Shown piece by piece: positions 24,916-54,434 of a DNA stretch of 54,728 nt. This stretch comes from Magnetococcales bacterium (GTDB taxonomy: Bacteria > Pseudomonadota > Magnetococcia > Magnetococcales > JADFZT01): assembly GCA_015232395.1 (NCBI GenBank), contig JADFZT010000026.1:1-54728 (forward strand). Reading direction: 5' to 3'. A program made the translations under genes and the position numbers. The notes beneath the pieces are model-generated. The model was not told the origin of the DNA, ran no database searches, and saw nothing but the letters and a program-made list of their open reading frames with translations. How positions within the stretch are numbered: position 1 is the stretch's first letter; every line of letters begins with the position of its first letter.

Positions 24916-25451
24916 ATCGTCTCCTCAATCAATCTGCTACGGATGGGGGTGTGCCATCCATTATATAGTGATATCGATGGTGACGTTGCCGCCAACCGTG
25001 ATGTCGATTGTGGCACCGTCACATCTATATAGATACGCCTGCTCTTTCCCTTATATGGATACGCCCCACTCTTTGCCCTCTCATCTTGATGAGGGGTTCC
25101 TCTGAGTCGGCTTCAGCTTGATGTGCCAAGTGTGAGATCAAACGGTGATGGCAGCCCCAGCCGGTTTTGGGCGACAGGTTAGCAGAAGCAGACAGCCCAC
25201 AACAAGAATGGGCAGACACAGCCACCCCCTACCAATGTCGATCAACCATCCCCCCCTCAACCATATCGATCAGCCTCCCCTTCTCTGACAATCCTGGCAG
25301 CGGGGGGGATCCTTTGAGATCAGTTTGCCTGGAAATCGGTTCGGCTAAGCTTTACCATGAGCGGCGGTGGAAAATAATGGATTCAATTGTCGGTATTTTG
25401 ACGTTTTTCCACTATTCGGCTTATTTCACAAAATTTTGTCAGGGGGTTTTC
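24916..25451. promoter_or_regulatory. Divergent recA/pilT control region with short direct repeats
   Basis: This 536-bp gap holds no convincing gene. GTGATATCGATGGTG (about 24967) recurs as GTGATGTCGATTGTG 31 bp later. TATATAGATACGCC (25026-25039) recurs as TATATGGATACGCC (25052-25065), 26 bp later. Related ATGTCGATCAACC and ATATCGATCAGCC copies lie near 25234 and 25263. The first two pairs lie within 150 bp of the recA start and could be operators. Confidence 0.45.
25398..25426 (+). promoter_or_regulatory. Candidate promoter of pilT
   Basis: TTGACG at 25398-25403 and TTATTT at 25421-25426 are separated by 17 bases. Transcription would start about 20 bases before the pilT ATG. The -10 box is weak. 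Confidence 0.4.
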
Positions 25452-26501
25452 ATGTCCAAAAAAATGGGGATCGCGGAACTGTTGGCATTCGGGGTCAAAA
25501 ATGGCGCATCGGATCTGCATCTCTCTTCAGGGATGCCGCCCCTGATCCGGGTAGATGGTGATATCCGCCGTATCGACATCCCCCCACTGGATCGTGAGCA
25601 AGTCCACGACATGATCTACGACATTATGAACGACAAGCAGCGCAAGGATTTTGAAGATCGCTGGGAAAACGACTTTTCCTTTGAAATTCCAGGCCTTGCC
25701 CGCTTTCGTGTCAACGCATTCAACCAAAACCGGGGCCCGTCTGCGGTGTTCCGTACCATTCCTTCCGAAATCCTCACCTTGGAACAGCTGAGCGCGCCGG
25801 CCATCTTCAAGGAGTTCGCCGACACCCCCCGTGGGATCGTGCTGGTAACCGGCCCCACCGGTTCCGGTAAGTCAACCACACTGGCGGCGATGGTAGACTA
25901 TAAAAACAGGACCGAATATGGCCACATCCTCACCATGGAGGATCCCATTGAATTCGTTCATGAATCCAAAAAATGCCTGATCAATCAACGGGAGGTGCAC
26001 CGGGATACCAAATCCTTCGAAGCCTCTCTGCGCTCCGCCTTGCGTGAAGATCCGGACGTGATTCTGGTGGGTGAAATGCGCGACCTGGAAACCATCCGCC
26101 TGGCCCTCTCGGCAGCTGAAACCGGTCACCTGGTCTTTGGCACCCTCCACACCACCTCTGCTGCCAAAACCATCGACCGTATCGTCGATGTCTTCCCTGC
26201 TGCCGAAAAAGATATGATCCGCACCATGATTTCCGAATCCCTGCGGGCAGTTATCTCCCAAACCCTGCTCAAGAAAAAGGGCGGTGGACGGGTGGCGGCC
26301 CATGAAATCATGATCGGCACCCCAGCCATCCGCAACCTGATCCGGGAAAACAAGGTGGCCCAGATGTATTCCGCCATCCAGACCGGTCGCGCCGTAGGCA
26401 TGATGACCTTGGAGCAAAACCTGCAGGAACTGGTGCAAAAAGGCCTGATTACCCGGGAAGCTGCCAGAGAAAAAGCCAACCACAAGGATTTCTTCAAATA
26501 G
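25452..26501 (+). CDS. pilT: Type IV pilus retraction ATPase PilT
   Basis: 349 residues. ATG 25452 is chosen because it gives the conserved N-terminus (MSKKMGIAELLAFGVKNGAS) with an AGGGGGT ribosome-binding site; the frame is open further upstream. Walker A is GPTGSGKST at 134-142. The Asp box and Walker B region includes VILVGEMRDLETI, the His box is TLHTTSA, and the PilT hallmark AIRNLIRE is present near the end. PilT is the hexameric motor that depolymerises type IV pili and drives twitching. A strong terminator follows the gene. Two PilU-like paralogues lie downstream. Confidence 0.95.
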   Translation: MSKKMGIAELLAFGVKNGASDLHLSSGMPPLIRVDGDIRRIDIPPLDREQVHDMIYDIMNDKQRKDFEDRWENDFSFEIPGLARFRVNAFNQNRGPSAVFRTIPSEILTLEQLSAPAIFKEFADTPRGIVLVTGPTGSGKSTTLAAMVDYKNRTEYGHILTMEDPIEFVHESKKCLINQREVHRDTKSFEASLRSALREDPDVILVGEMRDLETIRLALSAAETGHLVFGTLHTTSAAKTIDRIVDVFPAAEKDMIRTMISESLRAVISQTLLKKKGGGRVAAHEIMIGTPAIRNLIRENKVAQMYSAIQTGRAVGMMTLEQNLQELVQKGLITREAAREKANHKDFFK

Positions 26502-26517
26502 GTTCATTTCCCTGATT

Positions 26518-26568
26518 CCACCACCGCCTGGCCCAAGATAACTGATGTCAGGCGGTGGTGGCGTTTTT
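26518..26568 (+). terminator. Rho-independent terminator of pilT
   Basis: CCACCACCGCCTG (26518-26530) and CAGGCGGTGGTGG (26549-26561) form a perfect 13-bp stem with an 18-base loop, followed by CGTTTTT. Confidence 0.9.
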
Positions 26569-26787
26569 CCACCTCGGCACCACCGCCACCCCCCCCTTTC
26601 ATCCCCCCTTCCCTATCCCCAATCCGCTAAACGCCCACCACCCTCAATTGATTTTTCAGAACGCCTGGCAATCCTGGAACGATGTTTGCATTGATTTGAG
26701 ATCAAACGGCCTCACCCTGAACCGATAGCGGTTTGGATCGAGGCTAACCCAAGGATTCACTCCTACTCGTTTCAGGATTAAGGCCCC

Positions 26788-27411
26788 ATGAAAATTTCCT
26801 TTTCCGGCTTTCGGCTGGCCCCCATTCTGATGGCTGTGACCTTGGCGGGGTGTGCCCAATTTCCCGTTGTGGTCCCCATGCCCCCAGCCGAGACCCACGC
26901 CCAAGAGTCGGCTGCCATGACGGAAGTGGATCTCATTCGCATGAGCCACGCCCTGACCGACGCCCTGGTAGCGGAACTTCAGAAAAATCACCCCTCGTTC
27001 CATCGGCGCAAGCCTTTGGTGGTGACCAGCTTTGTCAATCGCAACAATCTGGACGACTCCTCGGCTCTGGGACTGCTCATCTCCGATCACGTCGCCTCCC
27101 GCTTTACCCAGCAGGGTTTTTCGGTAGTGGAGCCCAAGTTGCGCAACGACCTGGCCATCCGCAAGGAGCAGGGTGAATTCATCCTCTCCCGGGATATCGA
27201 AAAGCTATCCGAGGAAAACCGGGCCTATGCGGTGGTGGTGGGCAACTATACCGAAGGACGGGATATGCTGGACATCACCTCCAAGATGATCCAGGTACGC
27301 ACCCGGCAGGTGTTGGCCTCCATCGATGCCAAACTGCCACTCGGCGTTCAAACCCGGGATCTCCTGGTTAATAATGGCGGCGGACCTACCTTGACGGTCG
27401 TAGACAAATGA
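26788..27411 (+). CDS. FlgO-domain lipoprotein, first of two
   Basis: 207 residues. The signal peptide MKISFSGFRLAPILMAVTLA ends at a lipobox (LAGC). The mature part carries a FlgO-like domain from about residue 55: PLVVTSFVNRNNLDDSSALG, then SDHVASRFTQQGFSVVEPKL, then FILSRDIEKL and YAVVVGNYT. FlgO in Vibrio is an outer-membrane lipoprotein needed for flagellar stability; the same fold occurs in many lipoproteins of unknown role. The next gene is a paralogue that overlaps it by 4 bp. Position between PilT and a PilU-like ATPase suggests an envelope function connected with pili, but that is inference. Confidence 0.8.
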   Translation: MKISFSGFRLAPILMAVTLAGCAQFPVVVPMPPAETHAQESAAMTEVDLIRMSHALTDALVAELQKNHPSFHRRKPLVVTSFVNRNNLDDSSALGLLISDHVASRFTQQGFSVVEPKLRNDLAIRKEQGEFILSRDIEKLSEENRAYAVVVGNYTEGRDMLDITSKMIQVRTRQVLASIDAKLPLGVQTRDLLVNNGGGPTLTVVDK

Positions 27412-28004
27412 GACGCACACCTCACACCAATGGCTGGATCCGGGGCTTTCTGGCCGGGCTCTGCCTGCTGGCAACCGCTCTCCCCTCGGGGTGCGCGCCT
27501 CCCCCGCCGGAACACCCCATGGTTTCCCAGCCCCTCTCCAGCCGCACGCCGCAAAATCTGACCAGTGCAGCCTATGAAGCGGCGGACGCCATGTTGGCCC
27601 GGCTTGGGGATCGCATTCACCCGAAACAGACCATTCTGCCAGCCAGCTTTGTGGATCAGGATGATCTCAATAAATCTTCCCGACTGGGCCGGCTTCTGGC
27701 CCGGCAGATGGCTTCCCGCTTTACCCAGGCGGGATTGCCGGTGGTGGAAGTCAAACTGCGCAACAGCATTCTGATCCAGGAAGGAAAAGGGGAATTTTTG
27801 CTCTCCCGGGAGCTGGACGCCATCCAGGCCGATCATAATGTGCACGCCGTGCTGGTGGGCAGTTATGCCGTCGCCGGATCCAAAATTTTTGTCAATGCCC
27901 AGCTGATTCGCCTGAAAGACCGGGTTATTCTCTCCTCCCAGGACTTTACCGTGCCCATGGGCAATGACACCCGGGCTCTGGTGGCTGAAAACAAAACTTA
28001 CTGA
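27408..28004 (+). CDS. FlgO-domain lipoprotein, second of two
   Basis: 198 residues, start codon overlapping the previous stop (ATGA). A longer basic signal peptide ends at a lipobox (LPSGC). The mature domain is clearly homologous to the upstream protein: ASFVDQDDLNKSSRLGRLLA, then MASRFTQAGLPVVEVKLRNS, then GEFLLSREL and AVLVGSYA. The pair is a tandem duplication that has diverged, and translational coupling suggests equal amounts and perhaps a heteromer in the outer membrane. A large hairpin follows the gene. Confidence 0.8.
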   Translation: MRRTPHTNGWIRGFLAGLCLLATALPSGCAPPPPEHPMVSQPLSSRTPQNLTSAAYEAADAMLARLGDRIHPKQTILPASFVDQDDLNKSSRLGRLLARQMASRFTQAGLPVVEVKLRNSILIQEGKGEFLLSRELDAIQADHNVHAVLVGSYAVAGSKIFVNAQLIRLKDRVILSSQDFTVPMGNDTRALVAENKTY

Positions 28005-28018
28005 CCCCACACCCAGCA

Positions 28019-28111
28019 TTCATCGACCTCCCTGCGCCGGGGTTCGGAATAACGGCCTCCCCTCCAAGCTCCGAACCGCTTGGCTTGCGGGGAGTCGATG
28101 ATAAAATTTTT
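28019..28111 (+). terminator. Long interrupted hairpin after the lipoprotein pair
   Basis: CATCGAC (28021-28027) pairs with GTCGATG (28094-28100). Inside it, GGTTCGGA pairs with TCCGAACC, and CTCCC with GGGAG. A T-rich run follows (ATTTTTTCC). It could terminate the lipoprotein transcript, or be the folded end of a small repeat element. Confidence 0.5.
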
Positions 28112-28455
28112 TCCTCTTTTACACCCCCTTTGCCTCTTCATCCATTGACCAAAACGCCTTTCGCACCACCATTCCAGCCACGCTCCACCCATGGAATCTC
28201 CCCACGAACAACGCCCTCTCCCTGCAAAAGTTGCTCGAACCACGCGAATCAAGGTTTAATTACCGGGCAAAACAGGGTTTAATCATTCTCTGTAACAGGA
28301 TGGGCCGTTCCGGTGGGGGGAAGGTCCTTCGCCATGGGAATCAATGGGGGTACAAGTCCCACGATATCTTGGTCGGCTGAGCTGGTTCAGGAAAAACCAA
28401 CCCAAGACCACCCCAACCCATTTCAAACCTACGGATTGAGAGAGCGAGGAATCAA
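28112..28455 (+). other. Non-coding leader upstream of the first PilU-like gene
   Basis: About 340 bases with no gene. The last 160 bases can fold: GAAGG-TCC-TTC near 28320, and TCTTGG...CCAAGA enclosing CTGGTT...AACCAA at about 28365-28410. The T-loop-like GGGTACAAGTCCC at about 28350 is not part of a tRNA. I compared it by eye with c-di-GMP-I, cobalamin and TPP riboswitch cores and found no match. Confidence 0.35.
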
Positions 28456-29613
28456 ATGGATCGTGAACAAGCCATCAAATTTATGCTCGATGCCCTGAAA
28501 ACCATGCTGAAAAAGGGTGGATCGGATCTATTTATCACGGCAGGATTTCCAGCAGCGGCCAAAATCGACGGCAAAATGACCCCCCTTGGCAAAAATCCCC
28601 TGGACGCCAACCAAACCCGGATGCTCTCCCGCTCCATCATGAACGACAAGCAGGTGAAGGAGTTTGACGCCACCAAGGAGTGCAACTTTGCCATCAACCC
28701 CCCCGGGGTAGGCCGTTTCCGCGTCAACGCCTTTGTCCAGCAGGCCCGGGTCGGCATGGTGCTGCGAACCATCACCACCGACATTCCGGACTTCGACCAG
28801 CTGGGATTGCCGCCCATTCTCAAGGATGTGGTGATGGCCAAAACCGGCCTGGTGCTGGTGGTGGGAGGGACCGGATCGGGTAAATCGACCTCTCTGGCTG
28901 CCATGATCGGCCACCGCAACAAAAATTCCCACGGCCACATCATCTCCATTGAAGATCCGGTGGAGTATGTCCATCCCCACGTCAACTGCATCATCACCCA
29001 GCGGGAGGTGGGGGTGGATACCGAAGGGTGGCATGCCGCGCTCAAAAACACCCTGCGTCAGGCCCCCAACGTCATTCTCATCGGGGAAATCCGTGATCAG
29101 GAGACCATGGAGCACGCCATCAACTTTGCCGAAACCGGCCACTTGGCGCTCTCCACCCTCCACGCCAACAACGCCAACCAAACCCTCGACCGCATCATCA
29201 ACATGTTTCCCTCTGCCAAACGCCAGCAGCTCCTGATGGATCTCTCCCTGAACCTCAGGGGAATTATTTCCCAGCGACTGCTGAAACGCAAAGGGGGGGG
29301 CCGGGTCGCCGCGATTGAGATCATGCTCAACTCCCCTCTTATCTCCGACCTCATTTTTAAAGGGGAAGTGCACGGCATCAAGGAGATCATGGGTAAGTCC
29401 AATGAGCTGGGGATGAAAACCTTTGATCAGGCCCTCTTCGATCTCTATGAAGCAGATCTCATCACTTACGAAGATGCCCTGCGCTCTGCCGACTCCGCCA
29501 ACGAACTGCGTCTGAAGATCAAACTGGAAGGTAAAGATTCCAAAAACCGCGATGTCAACGAAGGCCTCGACGGGATCAACCTGGTGGCCAAGGAAGAAGA
29601 TCTCGGGATGTAA
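28456..29613 (+). CDS. pilU: PilU-like type IV pilus ATPase, first copy
   Basis: 385 residues. Walker A is GGTGSGKST at 137-145. VILIGEIRDQETMEHAINFA carries the Walker B region and TLHANNANQTLDRIINMFP the His box. It lacks the PilT AIRNLIRE motif; the equivalent place reads PLISDLIFKGEVHGIKEIM, as in PilU. PilU assists PilT in retraction under load. This copy has a longer charged C-terminus (about 30 extra residues ending KEEDLGM). A nested hairpin separates it from the second copy. The gene symbol rests on motif resemblance, so PilT-like 2 is an equally safe name. Confidence 0.85.
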   Translation: MDREQAIKFMLDALKTMLKKGGSDLFITAGFPAAAKIDGKMTPLGKNPLDANQTRMLSRSIMNDKQVKEFDATKECNFAINPPGVGRFRVNAFVQQARVGMVLRTITTDIPDFDQLGLPPILKDVVMAKTGLVLVVGGTGSGKSTSLAAMIGHRNKNSHGHIISIEDPVEYVHPHVNCIITQREVGVDTEGWHAALKNTLRQAPNVILIGEIRDQETMEHAINFAETGHLALSTLHANNANQTLDRIINMFPSAKRQQLLMDLSLNLRGIISQRLLKRKGGGRVAAIEIMLNSPLISDLIFKGEVHGIKEIMGKSNELGMKTFDQALFDLYEADLITYEDALRSADSANELRLKIKLEGKDSKNRDVNEGLDGINLVAKEEDLGM

Positions 29614-29625
29614 TTCATCCAAACG

Positions 29626-29681
29626 GCCAAGCAGAGGTCAGAGGGCGGTCAAGTCTAAAGACAACCGCCCTCAAGCTTGGC
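29626..29681 (+). other. Nested hairpin between the two PilU-like genes
   Basis: GAGGGCGGT (29641-29649) pairs with ACCGCCCTC (29664-29672), and this is enclosed by GCCAAGC (29626-29632) with GCTTGGC (29675-29681). No T-run follows, so it is more likely an RNA-stability or attenuation structure than a full terminator. Confidence 0.55.
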
Positions 29682-29726
29682 ATGCCACTTAAGACGACGC
29701 ACTGACAAACCAATCGAGAGCCGATC

Positions 29727-30782
29727 ATGAATGTGACACCCTATTTGAAACTGATGATCGAAAAGGGGGCTTCCGACCTCTTTTTCAGCTGTGACACCCC
29801 CCCGAAGATGAAACTTGACGGCAAGATGGTTTCGGTAGGCAAGGATGTTCTCACACCAAAAATGGTGAAGGCGGCCTGTCTTTCCATCATGGACGAGGAG
29901 CAGGCCAAATATTTCGAGGAGGAGCTGGAGATCGACTTTGCGATCTCCCTGGGTACCGAGGGGCGTTTCCGGGTCAACGCCTTTCACAGCAAAAACAACA
30001 CCGGCATGGTCCTCCGCTACATCAAGGCCAAGGTGCCCAATATCGACGACCTCAAGGTGCCGCCCATCCTCAAAGAGCTGATCATGCCCAAGCGTGGCCT
30101 GCTGCTCATGGTGGGCGCCACCGGTTCGGGAAAATCCACCACCCTTGCGGCCATGATCGACCACCGCAACGCCACCTCAGCGGGCCACATTCTCACCATT
30201 GAGGATCCCATCGAATTTATCCATCCCCACAAAAAATCCCTCATCAACCAGCGGGAAGTGGGGCCGGATACCAAATCCTATGCCCGCGCCTTGAAAAGCT
30301 CTCTGCGGGAAGCGCCGGATGTTATTCTGATCGGTGAGATCCGGGATCGGGAAACCATGGAAGCGGCCTTGGAGCTGGCGGGTACAGGCCATCTGGCCAT
30401 CTCCACCCTCCATGCCAACAACGCCTTTCAGGCCATGACCCGAATCATCAACATGTTTCCCCAGGCGCTGCACAAGCAGCTCTTCATGGATATGTCCCTC
30501 TACATGCGGGCGATCATCTCCCAACGCCTGGTGCGCAGTGTTGATGGCAAGCGCCGGGCGGCTGTGGAAATCATGGTCAACACCCCCCACATCGCCGAAT
30601 TGATGCTCCAGGGGCAAGTGGATGAGATGAAGGAAGCCCTGGAAAACAGTGGTGAAAAAGGGATGCAATCCTTCGATCTTTCCCTCTTCAATCTTTACAA
30701 GGAGGGGGCTATCACCATGGAAGAAGCCCTGGGTAACGCCGACTCCCGGGCCAACCTCGAAGCCAAAATCCACTTCGGTTGA
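29727..30782 (+). CDS. PilU-like type IV pilus ATPase, second copy
   Basis: 351 residues. Walker A GATGSGKST is at 130-138, VILIGEIRDRETMEAALELA is the Walker B region, and TLHANNAFQAMTRIINMFPQ the His box. It also lacks AIRNLIRE (TPHIAELMLQGQVDEMKEAL instead), so it groups with PilU rather than PilT. It is closely similar to the upstream copy in the ATPase core and differs mainly in the N-terminal domain and the shorter C-terminus. Having two PilU paralogues next to one PilT suggests different loads or different pilus systems. Confidence 0.85.
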   Translation: MNVTPYLKLMIEKGASDLFFSCDTPPKMKLDGKMVSVGKDVLTPKMVKAACLSIMDEEQAKYFEEELEIDFAISLGTEGRFRVNAFHSKNNTGMVLRYIKAKVPNIDDLKVPPILKELIMPKRGLLLMVGATGSGKSTTLAAMIDHRNATSAGHILTIEDPIEFIHPHKKSLINQREVGPDTKSYARALKSSLREAPDVILIGEIRDRETMEAALELAGTGHLAISTLHANNAFQAMTRIINMFPQALHKQLFMDMSLYMRAIISQRLVRSVDGKRRAAVEIMVNTPHIAELMLQGQVDEMKEALENSGEKGMQSFDLSLFNLYKEGAITMEEALGNADSRANLEAKIHFG

Positions 30783-39831: not shown

Positions 39832-41031
39832 ATGGCCGGTATGGATAACCATTCCATCCAACGGATTCTTCTGGAATATGATCGGGAAAAAGAGCTTTAT
39901 GCTGATTTTTTGACCATGAATCTCCGGCTTTTCAAGGAGTTCATCAAGGAAAATGCCGTCGTCGTCTATTCCATTGAGGGGTTCCTCATGGATCGGGAGG
40001 CGTTACGGAACTGGTTGGAAACGACCACCACCCCGGTGCAATCCCTGAAAGATATCGAAGATCTCGTCACCATCCGGGTGCTGACCCACTTTGAAGATGA
40101 GGTGGTGCGGGTATCGGACATTCTCAAAAGCGCCTTTTCGGTGGTGAGAGATGTCTTTGGTGAGGGAAAAATCCAGGAACCAAAGCGATTCGGTTACCAC
40201 TCCCACTACTATCTCACCCGAATGATGGATGCCCGGCTGGAGTTGATCGAATATCGCCGTTTTCGCGCGTGTCAGGTGATGTTTCAGATTCGTTCCCTTT
40301 TGCAACACACCTGGTTGTCCATCCAAAAACGACTTGATTTTCCCAACGAGACCGCCCTACCCCAGGAACTGAGACGGCCTGCGGCGCGTATTGTGGGTCT
40401 CTTTGAGCTGGCAGACAGGCAGCTCAACACCCTGAAGCAGGAAGTCACCCTGGCTGCCGCCGAGCCGGAACCCCAACCCCAAGAGGGGGTGGAGTTAGCG
40501 GTCAAACTTGCCAAAAAGCCTGCCAAGGCCTCGAAAAAGAACGCTGACAAGGGCAAAAAATCCGGCAAAAAAACAGCGCCGGTCAAACCCGTCCCCCCCA
40601 AGCCAAAATCCCAAAAAGAGGCCTCTGCCACACCCTCCCCCTCTGAGCACCCACGCTGGTCCGGGGAAGAGTGGTCCAAACTGGTTTTGGGAGATTCCCT
40701 CATCCGGAGCCTGGATCGTAAAATTGCCGATCTGTTTGATCTCAGACTTAAATTTCACGAACCTTTCATCCAGCAGCTGGAAGCGATTGCCGCCAAGTTT
40801 GACATCCACTCCCAGGAAAGCCTGCTGGAATCCCTGGTGCGCAACGAAGCGGCCATTGTGAGCCATTCGGGCAAGCTCTTTGAAGGGGCTGATGTGGCGG
40901 ATGTGGATTTTATCGTGCGGGGTATCTCGATTTTGCTGCTGCTTCTGCACATCGCCATTGAAGTAAAAGACCAGGAGGCGATGGATGAAATCCTGGCCAT
41001 CATGCAAATTCCGCTGGAGCCATCCATCTGA
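39832..41031 (+). CDS. RelA/SpoT-like nucleotidyltransferase-fold protein, copy 1
   Basis: 399 residues with AAGGA 8 bases before the ATG. Residues 30-200 follow the RelA/SpoT synthetase core: IEDLVTIRV (75-83, conserved Asp), RFGYHSHYYLT (119-129) and MFQIRSLLQHTW (150-161). The glutamate expected two residues before the Gln (E-x-Q-I-R-T) is Met150, and the usual R-x-K-S segment before the Asp is absent, so (p)ppGpp synthesis is unlikely. A Lys/Pro/Ala-rich linker (about 225-275) leads to a helical C-terminal domain shared with the next gene. No membrane segment. The pair is unlike RelA, SpoT or short SAS enzymes in its C-terminal domain. Function unknown. Confidence 0.75.
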   Translation: MAGMDNHSIQRILLEYDREKELYADFLTMNLRLFKEFIKENAVVVYSIEGFLMDREALRNWLETTTTPVQSLKDIEDLVTIRVLTHFEDEVVRVSDILKSAFSVVRDVFGEGKIQEPKRFGYHSHYYLTRMMDARLELIEYRRFRACQVMFQIRSLLQHTWLSIQKRLDFPNETALPQELRRPAARIVGLFELADRQLNTLKQEVTLAAAEPEPQPQEGVELAVKLAKKPAKASKKNADKGKKSGKKTAPVKPVPPKPKSQKEASATPSPSEHPRWSGEEWSKLVLGDSLIRSLDRKIADLFDLRLKFHEPFIQQLEAIAAKFDIHSQESLLESLVRNEAAIVSHSGKLFEGADVADVDFIVRGISILLLLLHIAIEVKDQEAMDEILAIMQIPLEPSI

Positions 41032-41198
41032 ACGATTCGGGATGGTGAAGGAATAAACGAAACAATGGCAAGGAGCCTGACGGACTTTTGGATGGCTCAA
41101 GGGGATGCCAATCCCTGGAACCAGGCACGATCCCGGGAGAGATGATCCGTGACACGCCACACCATCAGCACCCGAGAGGGCATGAAGGTTTTCACCCC

Positions 41199-42491
41199 AT
41201 GAATACCAACGAGGTTATTTTATCGGAATACACCGAAAAGCAGGTGGCCTTCCGGGAATTCAAGAATCGACTTGGCGTTCTCCTCGACGAAACGGTCCGA
41301 GCGGGCAAGCTGGATGTCTTCGACATCACCACGAGGCTCAAAAGCCGTCGGAGCCTGGAGCGCAAAATCACTGAATCTTTGGATAATCTTTACCCTGCCC
41401 TTCATGAAGTGCCGGATCTGGTGGGTTTTCGTATCATCACTTTTTTTCAAAACGAAGTGGACCGGGTGATCGACCGACTGGCCCAGGATTTTCAGGTGGT
41501 CAAAGAGTCCTGGCCCCATCGGGAGATTGAACGCAACCCCGAGGCCCTGGGCTATCCCACAGGCTGGGCGGTGATTCAGCTACCCGCCGAACGGCTGAAG
41601 CTGGTGGAATATGAGCGGTTTGTGGGGTTTCAGGCTGAGATCCAGGTCTGCTCCCTCATGCAGCACACCTGGGGGCGGATTGAGCAGCATCTGGGCTATC
41701 CTCAGGATCGTTTTCCGGTGGAGATGCTTCGGGAATTTACCCAGCTGAGCTATCTCTTCGAGCTTTCCGATGGGGAGTTGAACCGGGTACGGAAATTTTT
41801 ATCTCCCTACAACTTTGACCCCAAAGAGAGGGAAACACCCAAGGGAATAACGCCCCCTGCACCTCCCCTTTCCTCAGCCAGCCAAGGGACCCAAGCCAGC
41901 CAACCTGCCCCTTCCACCCCATCCAACCGTCCCACACCGGACCAAAAAAAATCTCGGGCAAAAAAACCACCCTCCCCCAAACCTGAAACAATAACAGAGC
42001 CCGCAGATGATCCCATCGGGGTTGAGGAAGCCAAGGCCCTTGATCGGGTCGTGCTCTCCGGCAACGAAGCCGCCATTGATCTGGAAAGCCTGGAATTATT
42101 TATTCTCCAAAACGACATGGTGCGTCAGATTGATCGGATCATCGCCGCCTATTACGACACCCGCCTGATGTATCGTCAAAAATCGATGGAAAGGCTTTTG
42201 GCGGCCATCAACGATCTCGGCACCATTCACACTCTGGCCGACCTGGAAGAGCTGTTGTTTAAAAAGCGCAAATTGATTCCCAAGGTAGCCAAGGAAATTT
42301 TAGGGGACCACAACAGCCGGGAGTATGGCTTCGTGTTGAAGGGGGTCTCCCTCTTTCTACTCGCCTATATCGCTGTGGCCACCACCCGGGATATCAACAT
42401 TATCGGCGACTTTCTGGAAAACCACAGCTTTGACGAAAAGCTGGTGGACCGGTCCAACGTCCGGATGCTGCTGATGCTGGATGTGGGCTAG
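41199..42491 (+). CDS. RelA/SpoT-like nucleotidyltransferase-fold protein, copy 2
   Basis: 430 residues from ATG 41199 (AAGG about 10 bases before; the frame is open to 41088). The core has TTRLKSRRSLERK (44-56, the synthetase R-x-K-S region), DLVGFRII (73-80) and QAEIQVCSLMQHTW (145-158), with Glu147 in the catalytic position. The G-Y-x-S-x-H segment is altered to GYPTGWAV (118-125). After a Pro/Ser/Lys-rich linker (about 215-290) it has the same helical C-terminal domain as copy 1 (FILQNDMVRQIDRIIAAYYD against LVLGDSLIRSLDRKIADLFD). The two genes are 167 bp apart. The residues lost in copy 1 are kept here and the reverse, which suggests a mutually dependent pair. Confidence 0.75.
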   Translation: MNTNEVILSEYTEKQVAFREFKNRLGVLLDETVRAGKLDVFDITTRLKSRRSLERKITESLDNLYPALHEVPDLVGFRIITFFQNEVDRVIDRLAQDFQVVKESWPHREIERNPEALGYPTGWAVIQLPAERLKLVEYERFVGFQAEIQVCSLMQHTWGRIEQHLGYPQDRFPVEMLREFTQLSYLFELSDGELNRVRKFLSPYNFDPKERETPKGITPPAPPLSSASQGTQASQPAPSTPSNRPTPDQKKSRAKKPPSPKPETITEPADDPIGVEEAKALDRVVLSGNEAAIDLESLELFILQNDMVRQIDRIIAAYYDTRLMYRQKSMERLLAAINDLGTIHTLADLEELLFKKRKLIPKVAKEILGDHNSREYGFVLKGVSLFLLAYIAVATTRDINIIGDFLENHSFDEKLVDRSNVRMLLMLDVG

Positions 42492-45750: not shown

Positions 45751-46315
45751 ATTTCCTCCTCGGTGGTGGATTCCTGCTGGCAGCAGAATGAATAGTCTGG
45801 CATGACCGCCGGTTATCCCAAGCGTGCATATTGGTGTCAGACCGGGTATCGACGTCGTTTATTTTTCAAGCTTATTGGATGCTGAAATGGAAGCCATGCC
45901 TCTATCCAGTGCGGATGATTGGCTTCGGACAGCCTGCTTTTCGAGAGCCCCCTCTCACAAAATTTTCTTATACGAGCGAAAACATCATTTTGTTTTGTGA
46001 AATTTGTGTAACGAGAACGTTACACGGGCGTCATAATAGTAACCTTTCCACATTCAAATCAAGACCAAATGTCCGATAATTACACTTTTTTCCACTCCCT
46101 ATCCCCACCCCCTCAAAAGCGGAGGTGAGCTGTTGAAATGGACCGCCTCTTTGGATTAAACCTTCCAGGTATCCCGATGGTAGAGTGGACCGGATGGAAA
46201 ATATTTTCCGCTCCCTTGTAAAGGTCGGGAAGTTAGCGTGAGTCCCTTGGGGCGACACGAATGGCGGGAGCCACTATTTCAGTCACTTTTTTCCAAAAGC
46301 GAAGGATCGAAACCC
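45751..46315. promoter_or_regulatory. Divergent symporter/aldolase control region
   Basis: 565 bases without a gene. Two perfect palindromes are seen: GTGTAACG-AGAA-CGTTACAC at 46006-46025 and GGAAAATATTTTCC at 46196-46209. The stretch 45955-46080 is AT-rich and could hold promoters for both directions. No Pho box is clear, though the symporter gene would be a candidate for one. Confidence 0.4.
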
Positions 46316-47194
46316 ATGGCGGACACCGACGGCAATCAAGAATCAAAAAACTATCATCTGGATATCCCCATGGAGAGCCAGGTTTCTGGCCTCAAGGGTT
46401 GCAACTCTCTCGATTGGGGGATGAAAAATCGGCTTTCAAACATTTTCGACCCCAAGAGCAATCGCACGGTGATGCTGGCTGTGGATCACGGCTATTTCAT
46501 GGGCCCCACCACCGGCCTGGAGCGGATCGATGTGGATATCGTGCCCCTCCTCCCTTATGCCAACACCCTGATGTGTACCCGGGGTATTTTGCGCACCTCC
46601 ATTCCCCCCACCTTCAACAAGGGTGTGGTGCTCCGGGCGAGCGGTGGCCCCTCCATCCTCAAAGAGCTTTCCGATGAGGAAATTGCGGTCAACATGGAGG
46701 ATGCCCTGAGGATCAATTCTGCAGCGGTTGCGGTGCAGGTCTTTATCGGTGGCGAATTCGAAACCCGCTCCATCCACAACCTGACCCGGCTGGTGGATGC
46801 AGGCCTGCGCTACGGCATGCCTGTGCTGGGCGTGACGGCGGTCGGCAAAAACCTGGTGCGGGATGCCAAATATATGCGTCTGGCCACCCGCATCTGTGCC
46901 GAACTCGGCGCCACTTACGTCAAAACCTACTATGTGGATGATTTTGAAACCGTCACCGCCGCCTGCCCGGTGCCCATTGTGATTGCCGGTGGTAAAAAAA
47001 TTCCGGAACTGGATGCGCTGACCATGGCCTATAATGCCGTACAGCAGGGTGCTCACGGCGTGGATATGGGCCGCAATATTTTCCAATCCCCAGCTCCAAA
47101 AGCCATGATCCAGGCGGTCAACAAGGTGGTGCACGAAAACATGCCCCCCAAGGAAGCCCTGGCTCTCTATGAAGAGCTGAAAAACGCGGGTTGA
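46316..47194 (+). CDS. LsrF-like class I aldolase/thiolase
   Basis: 292 residues from ATG 46316, with GAAGGA about 10 bases before it; Escherichia coli LsrF has 291. The TIM-barrel DeoC/LacD family signature is clear: [15 protein letters not shown] near 51-65, and the Schiff-base lysine is Lys203 in [11 protein letters not shown], the same number as in Lsr[11 protein letters not shown] near the end binds phosphate. LsrF acts on the phosphorylated autoinducer-2 product; the related archaeal MJ0400 enzyme makes an aromatic-pathway precursor. No lsr transporter or kinase is nearby. The neighbouring aldolase/dehydrogenase suggests a sugar-phosphate breakdown route instead. The exact substrate is open. 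Confidence 0.85.
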
Positions 47195-47276: not shown

Positions 47277-47403
47277 CGATTGCTTTTACCGCCCCCATGC
47301 AGGCCAGATAATCCAGGCTGTCCCAACGCCTGGATAGCTGGCTTTAGAAGCATGGGAATTGCCATCCAGATCAGACTGGAATTGGAAACAGGAATTGCCA
47401 TCC

Positions 47404-49485
47404 ATGAAAAGCCGTTGGAACGACCAGGAAGCTGCCGCCTTCGTTGCCCGCCACGAAGCCCAGTGGGGTCAGGATTTGGCCTTGCGCACCTATACCGGCC
47501 ACCTGCTGGGTAGTGACAGAGAGCTGGTACTCCACGGCGGGGGCAACACCTCGGTCAAATGCTATCGCACCGGCCCCCTGGGGGAGCCCATCGACGCCAT
47601 TCACATCAAGGCCTCCGGCTGCGACCTGGCCACCATGACGCCTCAGGATTATGTACCGTTGAATCTGGGCTATCTGCGACGGCTTTCCACCCTGACACAA
47701 CTGAGCGATGCCCGGATGGTGTCGATCCTCAAGGCCCACACCCTGGAAGGCTCTGACGCGACTCCCTCCATCGAGGCCCTGCTCCACTGTTTTATCCCCC
47801 ACCGTTTTATCGACCATACCCACGCCGACGCCATCCTCACCCTGGGCAACCGCGAGGGGGGGAGTGAGCGCCTTCGGGAGGCTCTGGGGGAGGAGGTGAT
47901 ACTGCTCGATTATGTCCACCCCGGCTTTCAACTCTCCCTGGCCGCCGCCCAGGCCTTTTCGGAAAACCCCCAGGCCAAGGGAATGGTGCTGCTCAAGCAT
48001 GGCCTCATCACCTGGGGAGAGAGCGCCCGGGAAGCCTATGAAGCTACAGTGGAGATGGTCACCCGGGTGGAAAAATATCTGGCCACCCTCAAGCTCCACG
48101 ATCCCCCCCCCTTCGAGGTCACCTCAGAGCCTACCGCCAGGAGCCGTTATCGCAAGCTGGCACCCCGCTTGCGGGGAGCCCTGGCAGTCGCCACTGGCGA
48201 TGACGACCAACCCTGGCAGCGGATGGTGCTGCAGCCCCTGATCACACCGGAAACTTTAAAACTGGCAGATCATCCCCAAGGCCGGGAGATCGCTCTAACC
48301 CCGCCGCTGACATCAGACCATCTGATCCGCACCAAAGCCCTTCCCCTCTGGCTGGACAATCCCGAAGAGGCGGTAGCAGCAGTGGCCGGATATAGCGAAA
48401 GCTATGACGCTTATTTTGAACGCCATCGGGAACACCTGACCCCAGGGGTAAAAAAACGCGATTCCAAACCCCGGATGATTTTGATCCCGGGGGTGGGGGC
48501 GGCCATTGCCGGGAGCGATCTGACTGAATCCACCATCGCCCGGGATATCACCTGCCAGACCATCACCGTTAAAAACCGTATCGCCCAAACCGGTCGCTTC
48601 GAAGGGCTGGATGAGCGCCACCTCTTCGACATGGAATATTTCAGTCTCCAGCATGCCAAACTCAACGCCACCACCCGGTTGCCGCTCCAGGGTTCCATCG
48701 CCCTGGTGACGGGCGCAGCGGGGGCCATTGGGGCTGGGATCTGTCAGGAGCTGTTGCAGCAGGGAGCCCTGGTGGCGGGTACCGATCTGGCGGGGGAAGC
48801 GCTGGAGGCGCTGTCGGAGCGGTTCAAGGCCGATTTTGGCGAACGCTTCATGGGGGTGGCGTTGGATGTCACCGATCCGGAAGCTGTGAAGGAAGGATTT
48901 GGTCAGGTGATCGATGTGTGGGGCGGGGTCGATCTGGTGATCATCAATGCGGGGCTGGCCCACGTCTCTTCCCTGGCCACCATGGATACCGACCGCTTCA
49001 AGCAGCTGATGCGGGTCAATACCGAAGGCACCCTCCATATTTTGGGTGAAGCGGCCCGGCTGTTTGAATTACAAGGCACCGGGGGGGATATCGTCCTCAT
49101 CTCCACCAAAAATGTCTTTGCACCCGGAGCCAACTTTGGGGCCTACAGTGCCACCAAAGCCGCCTCCCACCAGCTGGCCCGAATCGCCAGCCTCGAACTC
49201 GCAAGCCAGGATGTCCGGGTCAACATGGTCGCCCCCGACGGGGTGTTCAGCCATGGGGCCAACAAGTCGGGGCTGTGGGCTGAGGTGGGGCCGGACCGCA
49301 TGCGGGCCAGAGGGCTCGATGAAGATGGCCTGGAAGCCTATTATCAAAACCGAAACATGCTGAAAGCCAAAATTACCGCCACCCACGTCGCCCGGGCCGT
49401 GCTCTATTTTGCCACCCGTCAATCCCCCACCACCGGGGCCACCCTGCCGGTGGATGGCGGCTTGCCGGATGCCACTCCCCGATAA
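47404..49485 (+). CDS. Fused class II aldolase / short-chain dehydrogenase
   Basis: 693 residues from ATG 47404 (AGGAA upstream; longer frame open to 47359). Residues 15-235 form a class II (RhaD/FucA-type) aldolase domain: LHGGGNTSVK near 45, HTHADAILTLG with the metal-binding His pair, and HGLITWG. The C-terminal 250 residues are a short-chain dehydrogenase: VTGAAGAIGAG binds NAD, IINAGLAHVSS follows, and the active site is ISTKN with YSATK. A linker domain joins them. This is the architecture of the bifunctional rhamnulose-1-phosphate aldolase/lactaldehyde dehydrogenase family, though no rhamnose genes are present. With the LsrF-like gene it probably forms a two-step sugar breakdown path. 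Confidence 0.9.
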   Translation: MKSRWNDQEAAAFVARHEAQWGQDLALRTYTGHLLGSDRELVLHGGGNTSVKCYRTGPLGEPIDAIHIKASGCDLATMTPQDYVPLNLGYLRRLSTLTQLSDARMVSILKAHTLEGSDATPSIEALLHCFIPHRFIDHTHADAILTLGNREGGSERLREALGEEVILLDYVHPGFQLSLAAAQAFSENPQAKGMVLLKHGLITWGESAREAYEATVEMVTRVEKYLATLKLHDPPPFEVTSEPTARSRYRKLAPRLRGALAVATGDDDQPWQRMVLQPLITPETLKLADHPQGREIALTPPLTSDHLIRTKALPLWLDNPEEAVAAVAGYSESYDAYFERHREHLTPGVKKRDSKPRMILIPGVGAAIAGSDLTESTIARDITCQTITVKNRIAQTGRFEGLDERHLFDMEYFSLQHAKLNATTRLPLQGSIALVTGAAGAIGAGICQELLQQGALVAGTDLAGEALEALSERFKADFGERFMGVALDVTDPEAVKEGFGQVIDVWGGVDLVIINAGLAHVSSLATMDTDRFKQLMRVNTEGTLHILGEAARLFELQGTGGDIVLISTKNVFAPGANFGAYSATKAASHQLARIASLELASQDVRVNMVAPDGVFSHGANKSGLWAEVGPDRMRARGLDEDGLEAYYQNRNMLKAKITATHVARAVLYFATRQSPTTGATLPVDGGLPDATPR

Positions 49486-49670
49486 GAGCGACCAAGGACA
49501 ACTCTGAAATTCTGACTTTTGATAAAACCTGACGATCCCGATTATCGATAAAAGCCCCCTGGCCACATGCGATCAGGGCCTCCTGCCGATCCGTCCTGAA
49601 ACACCCATCCGGATCAATCAGGTTAGCCGGGATTTTTCTCTTCAACCCCTGACGAAACCGACTACCATTC

Positions 49671-52600
49671 ATGGGATCCAAGCATCACCGAACCGGCTTT
49701 TTTTTGCGTGAAGGCCTTTTCAACAACTTTGGCCACTTTTCCGAGCTGGAAGCGCGTATCACCGAGCTTCCCAGTGAAAAGGATCGCAACGACGCCTTGG
49801 AGATATTTATCGAAGGGATGCTGGCGACCCGTGCTCTGGATGCCGTCAACGACTTTCAGCCCCTCGATTTTGTTCCCTTTGAGCGTCGCCGGAAGCTTTT
49901 TCCACCCACAGGGGAGACACTGGCACAAGGGGTTTTTAAAACACCAGCCGGGGAGGAGCACCCCTATCACGTGCTGTTCAAACCGGGCAGGCCCCCCCTC
50001 TCCAACCGGGATGTCACCGATTTTCTGGCTCTTCAGGGGCTCTTTCCCCATAAGCTCCTCATCACCAACTGCGACCTGCTCCCCCCGGCCCTCAGCCGTG
50101 AGAAGGGGGTCTACAGCTTGAGAGGGAGCGATCTGGACCGGTTGGAGCGCCGAGAGATTCTCGCCATCCGCCGCTGGTTGCAAGGGGGAGGTCTCACGGT
50201 GGAACGGCAGGTTTTGCCCAGACACCTGGAAACCGCACGGGGAGAGATCCACAATGGGCTAAACCGCACGGATCAGGGCTCGGTGATCTTTCCCCCCGGT
50301 CTGGAGAGCGCCCGCCTGCTGCTGGCCCTCGGGGAAAAGCAGGCCGGACGACGCACCCTGCTGATCTGGAGCCCCAGCTTTGACCGCTTGCAGCAGATCC
50401 TCAATATCTGGCGTCAACAAGCCACCTGGCAGGCCCTCTCCCCCTTGCTGGTCCACGACCCCAAAGCCCCCACCCCGCCAGATCATCCCCCCCTGAAAAC
50501 GGAAGAGCTGAATTTTCCCCTGGCGGTGGAAGCAGAAGATATTCGGCGCTTTCTGGCTTGGCGGAGTAACAGCACCAAAGCCATTCTCGCCACCCATTCG
50601 GCGGCTTCCCTGGTGGCAGAGGCATTGACAGAACAGACCCCACCGGAGCTGGCTGTTTTTCTCGATGCCCACCACCCGCCCCTCTCCAGCCCCGGCGAAT
50701 CCCTTCAGGCCCTCCTGGACAACCCCACCCTCAGAGGCCGCAAAACCCTCTTTTTGGCCCCGGTGGAGCACCATCAGGAGATCACCCGCAAGGATAAGAA
50801 TGGAGAGGCCAAAACCCTCTTTTCCCTAAAGGATCAAAAACGCTTCGGCCCTCCCTTGCATCAACTGGCCGTGGCCGAAGCCGCCAAGCTGGGGCTCGTG
50901 GCGCCCACCCGGCTGGTGCTCTATGTGGTAACCCCCGAAAGCCTCGAACAAGCCGCCGCCACGAAAAAAAACAGCCCAGAGGAATCCCCTGCTCAAACCC
51001 CAGGCGAGCCCCTTCCAGCCGCCGCCCTCACCATCGATCGCTCCCAGGAACCCTCTGTCACTGAAAATCCGAAAACTGATAATCCGGTAGAAGAGCCAGA
51101 GCTGGATCCGACAACAGTCACCGATTTTGCCTTTTGGGAGCCCCCCGAAGAGGTAGCTGAAGAGGTGGCTGAAGAGGTAGCTGAAGATTTATTAAAACCT
51201 GCTGAAACCACCGATACCTCTCCAGACAAAGCCGCCCCCGAAGAACAGCCCGAACCATCCGAGGCCACCCCTGCTGCTGAACACTCCCCAGTGAATAAAA
51301 AATCGGCGCTATCGGATAAGGCACAAAGTGATGGGGAGCAAGAACTCCCGGAGGAAGTACCTACGGCATCTACCGATACCAAAACCACCCGCACCGCTGC
51401 TGAACAAGCGCCATCAGAAGCAATCCGGGAGCCTGCTGAAAAGACGGCAGGGAAGGAAGCGACCGACAGCAGCGATTCCGATGCCCCCACCCAGAAAACC
51501 AAACCCCGCAAAGCCAAAGCTGCGACTCCCCCTACCCCATCCCCCCACCATCAGGCTCTCTGGTTGGCCCTGGGTCAGGTGATGGCAGAGAGCAAAATTC
51601 ACAAGGTGCTCTCTCTACACCCCTCTCCCCCTCTCGCCCAGGCGTTCATCACCGCTGATCTCCCTCAAAGATCGGCAGAAGAAGGAAAAATAGAGACCTT
51701 CCATGTCAACGGGACCATGGGATCAAGCGAGGTTAAATCCTCTATAGCCGCATATGCGGATGGAGATAAAACCGCCCTCCTCTCCCTCCCCTTCGGCTAC
51801 GATCCCCACCCCGACTCTCCCCCCTGGCAGCTGGCGGTTATCTCCCCCCCCAAATCGGGCCGGGGAGACTCCCTGGGGGTAATTTCGCGATTGATGAGCC
51901 AACCGGCTTCCTCCCCCCCCGCCAAAGCCCCGGCCATTCTGCTGATCCCCCTGTTTTTGGAGGGAAAGCCCGGAGAAAATCTGGCGGAGCGGCTCCAGAA
52001 AACCAATCTGGCCGGGGAGCTTGATCTCATCCAGTGCCATGTGGAGCTGGAGGGCAGCTTAAGTGACATCATCCGCCTGTTGGGAGAAAACAAGGGGCGT
52101 ACGGGTCATTGGAATGCCGCACCTCTGCTGGCTGAACGATTGGCGGAAAAAATCGATATCCAAGCGCCCAACGAACTCTTGGAAGAAGCGCGCCAGAGCG
52201 TGTCCGAATATCTGGTGGATCAACTGGGCTCCTTGTGGGACCAACGCTTCGGTGAATTTATCGCCTTTCGGGATCGTGCGGGCCACGGGGAGCTACCCAA
52301 AAAACATCCCGATCATCCGGAGCTGGGACGCTGGGGAGAGCTGCAACGGGAAGCCAAAGCCAAAGGGCTTCTCTTGGAAGAACGGCTCAAACGCCTGGAG
52401 GCCGCCCGGTTTGTCTGGGATCTGGAGCAGGCTGGCTGGGAAAAACAGCTCAGAGAGGTGGTGCGCTTCAAGGAGACCCACGGCCACGGCAAAATTCCCG
52501 ACTCTCTGAAGGATAATCCAGAGCTGGGCAAATGGTGCAAACTGCAACGCAAGCTCAAAGCCCACGATGAACTGGCCCCGGAGAGGATCGCCAGGTTGGA

Positions 52601-54434
52601 GCGGGCGGGATTCGTTTGGGATCTGAAGGAGGCGGCCTGGGAGGCGCAATTTGCCAATCTCGGACAGTACAAACTGCGCCACAATCACTGCCGGGTGCCG
52701 GACGTCTATCCCGACCACCCTGAGCTGGGCCAATGGGCCAAGGATAACCGCAAAAACGCTGCCAATGGCACACTGAGTGATGAACGCCGGGAAAAACTGG
52801 AACGCATCGGCTTTGTCTGGGATTTGAAAGAAGCCGCATGGCTCGATCAATACCGGGCACTTTCCCAATATCGCTTTCGCCACAACCACTGCCGGGTACC
52901 GGATCTCTATCCGGAAAATCCGGAACTGGGCAAATGGGCCAAGGATAATCGCCGGGCAGCCCAGATGGGCACCCTCTCCCGGGAGCACCGGGAAAAACTC
53001 GACCAGGTGGGATTTGTCTGGGATCTACAGGAAGCGGCCTGGCTTGATCGATTTACCCTACTTGTTCGTTTCAAGGAGCGAACCGGTCACTGTAAGGTGC
53101 CGGACCTTTTTCCGGAGCAGCCGGAGCTGGGTAGTTGGGCCAAGGAGTGCCGCCGCTTAAAACGCCGGGGCAAAATCAATCCCCGCCACGAAGCGCGTCT
53201 GGAAGAGATCGGCTTTGTCTGGGATCTGGAGGCGGCGGCTTGGGAGGAGATGTTCGATCATCTGAAACTGTTTCGTGAAACCCACGGCCATTGCCAGCCC
53301 CCAGCCACCTATCCCCCGGTGCCGGGCCTCCCCCCCTGGGTGATTCGCCAGCGGTCGGATAAATATCGCAAGCGGCTGGCTCCCGAGCGCATCACCCGGC
53401 TCGATGAGATCGATTTTATCTGGGATCTGGAAGCCAAACAGTGGCAGGAAATGTTCGAAATCTTGGCCGCCTTCCACCAAGCCCACCACCATTTTCATCT
53501 ACCCAAGGGAGACCCCGATACCGCCGAGCTGGAAAAGTGGGTCACCAAACAGCGCGGGCTCCATAAATCGGGCAGGCTGGATCCAGAGCGGCAGGAAAAA
53601 CTCACCGGGATCGGTTTCGTCTGGGATAAACGGGATGCCGCCTGGGAGGAACGTTTTCAGGCGTTGGTACGATTCAAAAAAGAGCGCAACCATTGCAACG
53701 TCCCCGGCAAGTGGGCGGATGATCCGGAGCTGGCCAGGTGGGTGGCCAATCAGCGCAAGGATCACAAAAAAGGGACCCTGACCGAAGAGCGCATCAACCG
53801 CTTGACCGAACTGGGCTTGATTTGGGATACCCGGGAAATCTTTTGGGAGGAGATGTTTGCGGCTCTGGTGGAGTTTCGGGAAGTGCGGGGCCACTGCAAC
53901 GTGCCGGACGTCTATGATGAAAACCCCCAGCTCGCCTGGTGGGTCGCCACCCAACGCAAAGCCAAACCGTCGGGGCAGCTTTCAGAAGAGCGGCTGGCCC
54001 GATTGGATGCCCTGGAGTTTGTCTGGGATCCCTTGGCGGCCCGTTGGCTGGAGATGCTGCTGGAGCTGCGCCAATTTCACCAAACCCACGGCCACTGTCT
54101 GGTTCCCAAGGAGTGGCCGGAAAATCCCGCGTTGGGATCGTGGATCGCCACCCAAAGAAACGCCGCCCGCAATCGGATGTTGAGCGAAGAGCAGGTGGAA
54201 CAACTATCCGCCTTGAATTTTGTGTGGGATCCCCAGGTGGCTCTGGCTGAAGAGATGTTCGTTGGGCTGGCGCTCTTCAAGGAAACCCACGGCCACCTGA
54301 ACATCCCGGTTCAATACCGGGAAAACCCCCAGCTGGGGTTATGGCTTCAGTTTCAGCGTCAGGCGTGGAAAAAAGGTACTCTTGATCCAGAGCGAAAAAA
54401 ACGGCTCCAGGAGATGGGATTGGTTGCCGGATAG
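49671..54434 (+). CDS. Degenerate restriction-helicase-like protein with HA repeats
   Basis: 1587 residues. Residues 20-170 resemble an Mrr-type nuclease domain but lack its catalytic residues (YHVLFKPGRPPLSNRDVTDF stands where Q-x-K is expected). Residues 180-430 follow a superfamily 2 helicase first domain: PPGLESA (208-214) where Walker A should be, LLIWSPSFDRLQQIL as motif Ia, LDAHH (331-335) in place of DEAH, and FGPPLHQLAVAEAAKLGLV. An acidic Ala/Pro/Glu linker with three 12-bp tandem units at 51147-51182 follows. Residues 640-800 resemble the second helicase domain, but motif VI (Q-x-x-G-R-x-x-R) reads GVISRLMSQP. From 855 to the end are eleven HA units. No ribosome-binding site is clear. 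All ATPase and nuclease signatures look lost, so it is probably a DNA-binding structural protein. Confidence 0.8.
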   Translation: MGSKHHRTGFFLREGLFNNFGHFSELEARITELPSEKDRNDALEIFIEGMLATRALDAVNDFQPLDFVPFERRRKLFPPTGETLAQGVFKTPAGEEHPYHVLFKPGRPPLSNRDVTDFLALQGLFPHKLLITNCDLLPPALSREKGVYSLRGSDLDRLERREILAIRRWLQGGGLTVERQVLPRHLETARGEIHNGLNRTDQGSVIFPPGLESARLLLALGEKQAGRRTLLIWSPSFDRLQQILNIWRQQATWQALSPLLVHDPKAPTPPDHPPLKTEELNFPLAVEAEDIRRFLAWRSNSTKAILATHSAASLVAEALTEQTPPELAVFLDAHHPPLSSPGESLQALLDNPTLRGRKTLFLAPVEHHQEITRKDKNGEAKTLFSLKDQKRFGPPLHQLAVAEAAKLGLVAPTRLVLYVVTPESLEQAAATKKNSPEESPAQTPGEPLPAAALTIDRSQEPSVTENPKTDNPVEEPELDPTTVTDFAFWEPPEEVAEEVAEEVAEDLLKPAETTDTSPDKAAPEEQPEPSEATPAAEHSPVNKKSALSDKAQSDGEQELPEEVPTASTDTKTTRTAAEQAPSEAIREPAEKTAGKEATDSSDSDAPTQKTKPRKAKAATPPTPSPHHQALWLALGQVMAESKIHKVLSLHPSPPLAQAFITADLPQRSAEEGKIETFHVNGTMGSSEVKSSIAAYADGDKTALLSLPFGYDPHPDSPPWQLAVISPPKSGRGDSLGVISRLMSQPASSPPAKAPAILLIPLFLEGKPGENLAERLQKTNLAGELDLIQCHVELEGSLSDIIRLLGENKGRTGHWNAAPLLAERLAEKIDIQAPNELLEEARQSVSEYLVDQLGSLWDQRFGEFIAFRDRAGHGELPKKHPDHPELGRWGELQREAKAKGLLLEERLKRLEAARFVWDLEQAGWEKQLREVVRFKETHGHGKIPDSLKDNPELGKWCKLQRKLKAHDELAPERIARLERAGFVWDLKEAAWEAQFANLGQYKLRHNHCRVPDVYPDHPELGQWAKDNRKNAANGTLSDERREKLERIGFVWDLKEAAWLDQYRALSQYRFRHNHCRVPDLYPENPELGKWAKDNRRAAQMGTLSREHREKLDQVGFVWDLQEAAWLDRFTLLVRFKERTGHCKVPDLFPEQPELGSWAKECRRLKRRGKINPRHEARLEEIGFVWDLEAAAWEEMFDHLKLFRETHGHCQPPATYPPVPGLPPWVIRQRSDKYRKRLAPERITRLDEIDFIWDLEAKQWQEMFEILAAFHQAHHHFHLPKGDPDTAELEKWVTKQRGLHKSGRLDPERQEKLTGIGFVWDKRDAAWEERFQALVRFKKERNHCNVPGKWADDPELARWVANQRKDHKKGTLTEERINRLTELGLIWDTREIFWEEMFAALVEFREVRGHCNVPDVYDENPQLAWWVATQRKAKPSGQLSEERLARLDALEFVWDPLAARWLEMLLELRQFHQTHGHCLVPKEWPENPALGSWIATQRNAARNRMLSEEQVEQLSALNFVWDPQVALAEEMFVGLALFKETHGHLNIPVQYRENPQLGLWLQFQRQAWKKGTLDPERKKRLQEMGLVAG
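52233..54431 (+). repeat. Eleven helicase-associated (HA) repeats
   Basis: The coding repeat unit averages 67 residues (200 bp). Each unit has W-x-x-x-F/Y, a stretch F-K-x-x-H-G-H-C-x-V-P, then P-E-L-x-x-W, R-x-x-x-x-x-G-x-L, E-R-x-x-x-L and G-F-V-W-D. Units start near WDQRF, WEKQL, WEAQF, WLDQY, WLDRF, WEEMF, WQEMF, WEERF, WEEMF, WLEML and AEEMF. HA units are thought to be three-helix DNA-binding modules. Confidence 0.85.

Follow-up and report, generated by a model that had tools for sequence, protein, structure and literature searches.

A catalytically dead nuclease-helicase-HA protein kept across the Magnetococcales, usually behind an aldolase/dehydrogenase gene

Why would bacteria keep the skeleton of a restriction-type helicase in which the motifs needed for catalysis have been replaced? 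The question is raised by one reading frame in a 54,728-nucleotide contig of a Magnetococcales bacterium (JADFZT010000026.1; this whole stretch of DNA is called the window below). An initial annotation, made from the letters alone, described a nuclease-like domain followed by two RecA-like helicase domains and eleven HA repeats, and proposed that the protein is retained as a DNA-binding scaffold, an anti-phage decoy, or a regulator of an active paralogue. Here we follow this gene through its fold, its relatives, its neighbors, and its history in the order (Table 1).

Table 1. Positions in the window of the HA gene, its parts, and the genes upstream (aa, residues of the encoded protein).
Feature	Position	Strand	Remarks
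Catalytically dead nuclease-helicase-HA protein (whole gene)	49671..54434	+	1587-aa ORF, no internal stop
N-terminal helical module, conserved, aa 1-80	49671..49910	+	51% identity to phage-borne L114
PD-(D/E)xK (Mrr_cat_2-like) nuclease fold without catalytic lysine	49911..50210	+	N133, W169 invariant
RecA1-like lobe, aa 181-430	50211..50960	+	Profile, motif alignment, model
Walker A position, now PPGLESA	50292-50312	+	aa 208-214
DEAH position, now LDAHHP	50661-50678	+	aa 331-336
Linker, acidic, Pro/Glu-rich, predicted disordered, about aa 431-620	50961..51530	+	pLDDT mostly <50, pI 4.3
RecA2-like lobe and C-terminal helices, aa 621-850	51531..52220	+	Profile, motif alignment, model
Motif VI position, now GVISRLM	51876-51896	+	aa 736-742
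Eleven HA (PF03457) repeats	52236..54419	+	Three helices each in model
Bifunctional class II aldolase/short-chain dehydrogenase	47359..49485	+	NF006194, over cut-off
LsrF-type aldolase/thiolase	46238..47194	+	NF006081, 492 bits vs cut-off 297
Gap between aldolase/dehydrogenase gene and HA gene, 185 bp	49486..49670	+	No terminator-like site on + strand

A nuclease-helicase skeleton with its catalytic residues replaced

Searched against Pfam as a single sequence, the window protein matches one family only, HA, in 11 stretches (E = 4e-188), and all 11 repeats exceed the curated family cut-off in a search of the genome. The same search finds no helicase or nuclease match in the N-terminal part of any of 32 full-length orthologues, the window protein included, so the nuclease-helicase skeleton is visible to profiles and fold only. 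A profile of the 32 orthologues matches the enzyme LlaBIII (PDB 4xqk) across the nuclease, RecA1, and RecA2 regions (E = 2.9e-37), and an AlphaFold2 model of aa 1-870 (pLDDT 77, pTM 0.76, with core blocks mostly at 80-96) returns LlaBIII as its top Foldseek match (E = 1.3e-22). The two matches together establish that the nuclease-RecA1-RecA2 skeleton is correct. The domain order read from the letters was therefore right, and the helicase fold expected in residues 180-800 is present in the structure model as both RecA-like lobes. The array of HA repeats, modeled separately, forms eleven three-helix units (pLDDT 89, pTM 0.46), in which each unit is predicted to be well folded while the placement of the units relative to one another is uncertain. 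A fold search with the array against the PDB gave zero matches at E <= 0.001; a single HA unit does match a solved structure of the domain, 2KTA. From one RecA-like lobe to the other runs an acidic, low-complexity linker of roughly 190 aa (about aa 430-620, containing EEVAEEVAEEVAED), which is missing from most orthologues and largely specific to the species of the window.

Replacement of the catalytic motifs, also proposed from the letters, held up in both alignment and model. Intact relatives carry MACGTGKTx at Walker A where the window protein has FPPGLESAR, and the PPGLESA segment occupies a strand-loop-helix P-loop in the model (strand 202-206, helix 213-223). In alignment with the same relatives the DEAH box has become LDAHHP, motif III reads FLAPVEH, motif V is degraded, and motif VI, QxxGRxxR in the intact proteins, is GVISRLMS. 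The Q-x-K of the nuclease is H-V-L at aa 100-102, compared with Q-S-K in L114, a phage-borne relative discussed below. In all 32 full-length orthologues the P-loop and nuclease lysines and the arginine pair of motif VI are missing and no complete DEAH box remains; the aligned aspartate of the nuclease D...Q-x-K persists in some of them only. The same motif table shows intact ATPase motifs in Type ISP and HA relatives, the nuclease lysine being checkable in only two of these relatives. Since every one of the 32 proteins compared lacks the catalytic residues, the loss of catalysis predates the diversification of the order. The residues that now stand at the catalytic positions vary between lineages, and fragments of motifs II, III, and V persist in some of them (DAHRT, TATPR, and RCLTEG in the orthologue L049), a pattern that fits gradual erosion following an early loss of catalysis.

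Intact relatives and the origin of the dead form

LlaBIII and its relative LlaGI (PDB 4xqk and 5ffj) are Type ISP enzymes that join an Mrr-family nuclease to an SF2 helicase-like ATPase in the same order as the window protein, and they are its best matches in both profile and fold. Beyond this shared nuclease-motor fold the two diverge: Type ISP enzymes continue into coupler, methyltransferase, and target-recognition domains, whereas the window protein has lost the catalytic residues and carries HA repeats in place of those domains. Pfam finds no coupler, N6-methyltransferase, or Type_ISP_C domain in the window protein, although it finds them in true Type ISP relatives. One such intact restriction-modification enzyme occurs within the order itself (L099:3207-8237, in genome G017, contig C140); other Type ISP-like genes in the order are scattered only.

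Outside the order, our sample comprised plasmids, phages, viral contigs, and 299 genomes of the phylum. A profile of the N-terminal part recovered intact Type ISP enzymes and one plasmid HA helicase from this sample. Plasmid HA helicases, including those of Hydrogenophaga pPBL-H3, Pseudomonas megaplasmids, Streptomyces, and Rhodococcus, share the RecA1-RecA2-HA arrangement, some with a nuclease domain recognizable as Mrr_cat_2 or by its Q-x-K. Unlike the window protein, they reside on mobile elements, have 2-6 HA repeats, and in most cases keep their motifs. The window protein has the homology of an HA helicase in the nuclease and both RecA lobes, carries C-terminal PF03457 repeats, and lacks the ATPase and nuclease motifs.

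The closest intact relative was found when viral contigs were searched with the full family. L114 is a protein of 1019 aa on a 15.9-kb metagenomic contig (IMGVR_UViG_3300047160_014587) that also carries an HK97-type capsid gene, and it matches the family profile (E = 1.8e-163) far above every other outside relative. Its motifs are intact (MACGTGKT, DEAHKT, TATPR, QAAGRAMR, and nuclease QSK), and it is colinear with the window protein over the full length, from the N-terminal module through nuclease, RecA1, and RecA2 to the HA array. Identity is 51% in the module of aa 1-80 and 25-27% in the RecA parts. L114 has five HA repeats, no acidic linker, and a phage contig as its home, in contrast to the eleven repeats, linker, and chromosomal run of metabolic genes of the window protein. 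This relative is known from a single metagenomic sequence, and a viral-contig search with L114 as query returned L114 only.

In a maximum-likelihood tree, the 32 proteins of the order are monophyletic (UFBoot 98), nested inside active HA helicases, and adjoin L113, L114, and L115 at a node with support of 100. The nested position makes the dead state a derived one, and a single catalytic loss at the base of the order's branch would be the simplest reading of these sequences. Branches are long, also in the RecA part, and long-branch attraction could have affected the tree; orthology is nevertheless favored by synteny and by the N-terminal module that the proteins share. Domestication and catalytic death of the HA gene are well supported.

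Loss of catalysis with retention of the HA repeats happened more than once, as indicated by a separate branch of the tree and by plasmid proteins reduced to HA arrays. L112 (WP_208964517; L112:2081-5047 on NZ_CP058642.1), from a plasmid of Rhodococcus sp. ZPP, has also lost its catalytic motifs and kept its HA repeats. Its Walker A reads ARGTGRT, its DEAH and Q-x-K are gone, and a copy with 94% identity is found in Rhodococcus sp. WAY2, but it branches apart from the Magnetococcales clade, beside an active Rhodococcus helicase. HA-array proteins on other actinobacterial plasmids, those of R. opacus and Mycobacterium, have lost the helicase parts and retained the repeats: L105:3368-6124 has 10 and L110:3893-5755 has 8, and the 1.8 kb upstream of each contains no helicase motif, with only a Helicase_C remnant surviving in L105, the R. 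opacus protein. These degenerate Rhodococcus and Mycobacterium proteins are plasmid borne, whereas the window protein is the product of an order-wide chromosomal gene.

Retention, selection, and gene neighborhood in the order

The HA gene is present in 44 of 48 Magnetococcales genomes and was not detected in the other four (G007, G008, G013, and G041); the 32 full-length copies served for the comparisons of catalytic residues, repeats, and phylogeny. Where dS could be estimated, close pairs gave dN/dS values of 0.05-0.39 in every domain, and all domains are under purifying selection. The C-terminal HA repeats mostly had the lowest values, as the nuclease-like module often did, and the RecA lobes had higher ones. 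The frame of the window protein is confirmed as full length and free of stops at 1,587 aa. As the initial annotation had supposed, the protein is kept and not decaying, given these dN/dS values and its presence in 44 of 48 genomes. The proposed expansion of the array is likewise seen across the family, with 8-13 repeats in 31 of the 32 orthologues (5 in the remaining one) compared with 2-6 in the intact relatives sampled. Each of the last four repeats is more similar to the repeat at the same position in other species (44-58% alike) than to the remaining repeats within its own protein (35-38%), which argues that each is maintained as an individual unit. In two relatives (G036:C102, locus L045, and G044:C60/C63), the HA gene is split by a frame break that is either an assembly error or real.

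The most persistent feature of the locus is its upstream neighbor. Counting an aldolase/dehydrogenase gene on the same strand within 750 bp, tallied from coordinates, the HA gene directly follows this partner in 35 of 40 testable genomes from many families; four genomes (G024, G028, G033, and G034) were left out of the tally because their contigs end. In the five exceptions (G016, G021, G023, G025, and G031), the HA gene is found at another locus or at a greater distance. The gap separating the two genes, 185 bp in the window, is mostly 4-150 bp in relatives, and the LsrF-type gene is often the first of the same operon-like run. Two genomes, G007 (L081) and G013 (L080), retain the aldolase/dehydrogenase gene with no detectable HA gene and represent two apparent losses, while neither gene was matched in G008 and G041. 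Other window neighbors (Na/Pi transporter, DnaJ, RelA-like, and Lon genes) are not conserved near the HA gene, and PHP accompanies it in a few genomes only, so the pairing does not reflect general synteny. The link between the two genes is strong but not absolute. A promoter and terminator scan gave counts at chance level, with no terminator-like site on the + strand of the gap (49486-49670), and a shared-word operator search upstream of the LsrF-type gene yielded no conserved word, A-rich words aside.

Candidate roles for a helicase that has lost its motor

The explanation we consider probable is that the HA gene is a domesticated nuclease-SF2 helicase-HA enzyme of mobile-element origin, dead as an enzyme and kept as a non-catalytic scaffold. 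The order's ancestor would have acquired the intact enzyme from a phage or plasmid lineage, and the gene would have become fixed behind the aldolase/dehydrogenase gene. Before the order diversified, both catalytic lysines (P-loop and nuclease), the acids of the DEAH box, and the arginine finger disappeared while the folds were retained, and the HA array would have grown from about 5 units to 8-13. In the protein as it now stands, the array might hold nucleic acid as a long, non-catalytic scaffold, the conserved N-terminal and nuclease-like module might hold a partner, and the two RecA-like lobes could serve as a passive connector. A functional tie to the aldolase/dehydrogenase is suggested by gene order: since the HA protein is usually encoded right behind this enzyme, the two probably serve one process, where the HA protein might, for instance, regulate the pathway or organize it in association with DNA or RNA. 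Of the uses first proposed, reuse as a non-enzymatic scaffold fits best, and the intact phage relative and the conserved operon position strengthen it.

Nucleic-acid binding by the array is a first guess, made because HA repeats stand where Type ISP enzymes have their DNA-recognition part and because an HA unit matches 2KTA. In the window protein the HA cores carry a net basic charge (+1.45 per repeat), which is suggestive of DNA binding there, but for the family charge is not decisive: several orthologues are neutral or acidic in this region, and the family did not differ significantly from nine other HA proteins (p = 0.07). These neutral and acidic arrays make a protein-binding role with the aldolase/dehydrogenase a serious rival, in which the HA protein would be a structural or regulatory partner of the enzyme or its complex and the array a protein-binding chain. 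Several observations agree with such a protein-only scaffold, among them the tight, order-wide gene pairing, a charge near neutral in many orthologues, constraint that is often strongest in the N-terminal module and C-terminal repeats, and the conservation of the last four repeats one by one. However, the HA repeats of relatives belong to enzymes that act on DNA, and two genomes keep the aldolase gene without its companion, and on balance we find this rival unlikely.

Less is to be said for the remaining alternatives. That the closest intact homologue is phage borne, and that PADLOC restriction-enzyme models match intact relatives, would suit a decoy or dominant-negative protein, a dead host copy interfering with active HA helicases of phages or plasmids such as L114. 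This seems improbable, as the gene is single copy and near universal in a metabolic neighborhood rather than patchy like a defense island, only 5 of the 48 genomes contain capsid genes resembling the one carried by the L114 phage, and the window protein itself gives only a weak, partial PADLOC match (REase_MTase_IIG, E = 1e-5); no positive evidence for interference was found. Regulation of an active paralogue could be imagined in G017, with its intact Type ISP enzyme, but it is very hard to reconcile with a 99%-complete home genome in which the HA gene is single copy, with zero other HA proteins over the cut-off and zero other matches to the family profile, or with the scattered Type ISP-like genes of the order. 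Protein, HA-family, and profile searches all failed to find an active paralogue there. Full retention of the fold in the model, and the motif fragments of orthologues such as L049, could hint at an enzyme with unorthodox catalytic residues; the universal absence of the P-loop lysine, arginine pair, and nuclease lysine, and substitutes that change from lineage to lineage, make this highly improbable. A decaying pseudogene might be expected to show the long RecA branches and the two broken frames, if these are not assembly errors, yet long open frames in most genomes and dN/dS well below 1 in all domains leave this idea barely credible, and selection together with retention in 44 of 48 genomes rules it out for most lineages.

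A bolder form of the domestication reading is put forward more tentatively, as possible but rather doubtful: that the order tamed a phage or plasmid helicase, that the protein is co-expressed with the aldolase/dehydrogenase and physically links its pathway to DNA or RNA, and that it represents a new class, the domesticated restriction pseudoenzymes. Eukaryotes offer well-known cases of dead enzymes that were domesticated. If our reading is correct, a single-copy, order-wide, dead restriction-type helicase paired with a metabolic gene in bacteria would be an unusual passage of a mobile-element weapon into core machinery. With the intact L114, the form before the change can be set directly beside the form after it. 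The HA domain is found in hundreds of plasmid records, and the dead protein would allow it to be studied in a setting in which it has to function with no motor; the literature searched held no paper on HA-repeat function or on the Magnetococcales protein.

Two further features of the window deserve mention in their own right. At 39832-42491, two adjoining proteins of 399 and 467 aa, each with a RelA/SpoT synthetase-type domain, are encoded beside lon, and three type II/IV secretion ATPase genes of the T2SSE family lie in one stretch at 25167-30782.
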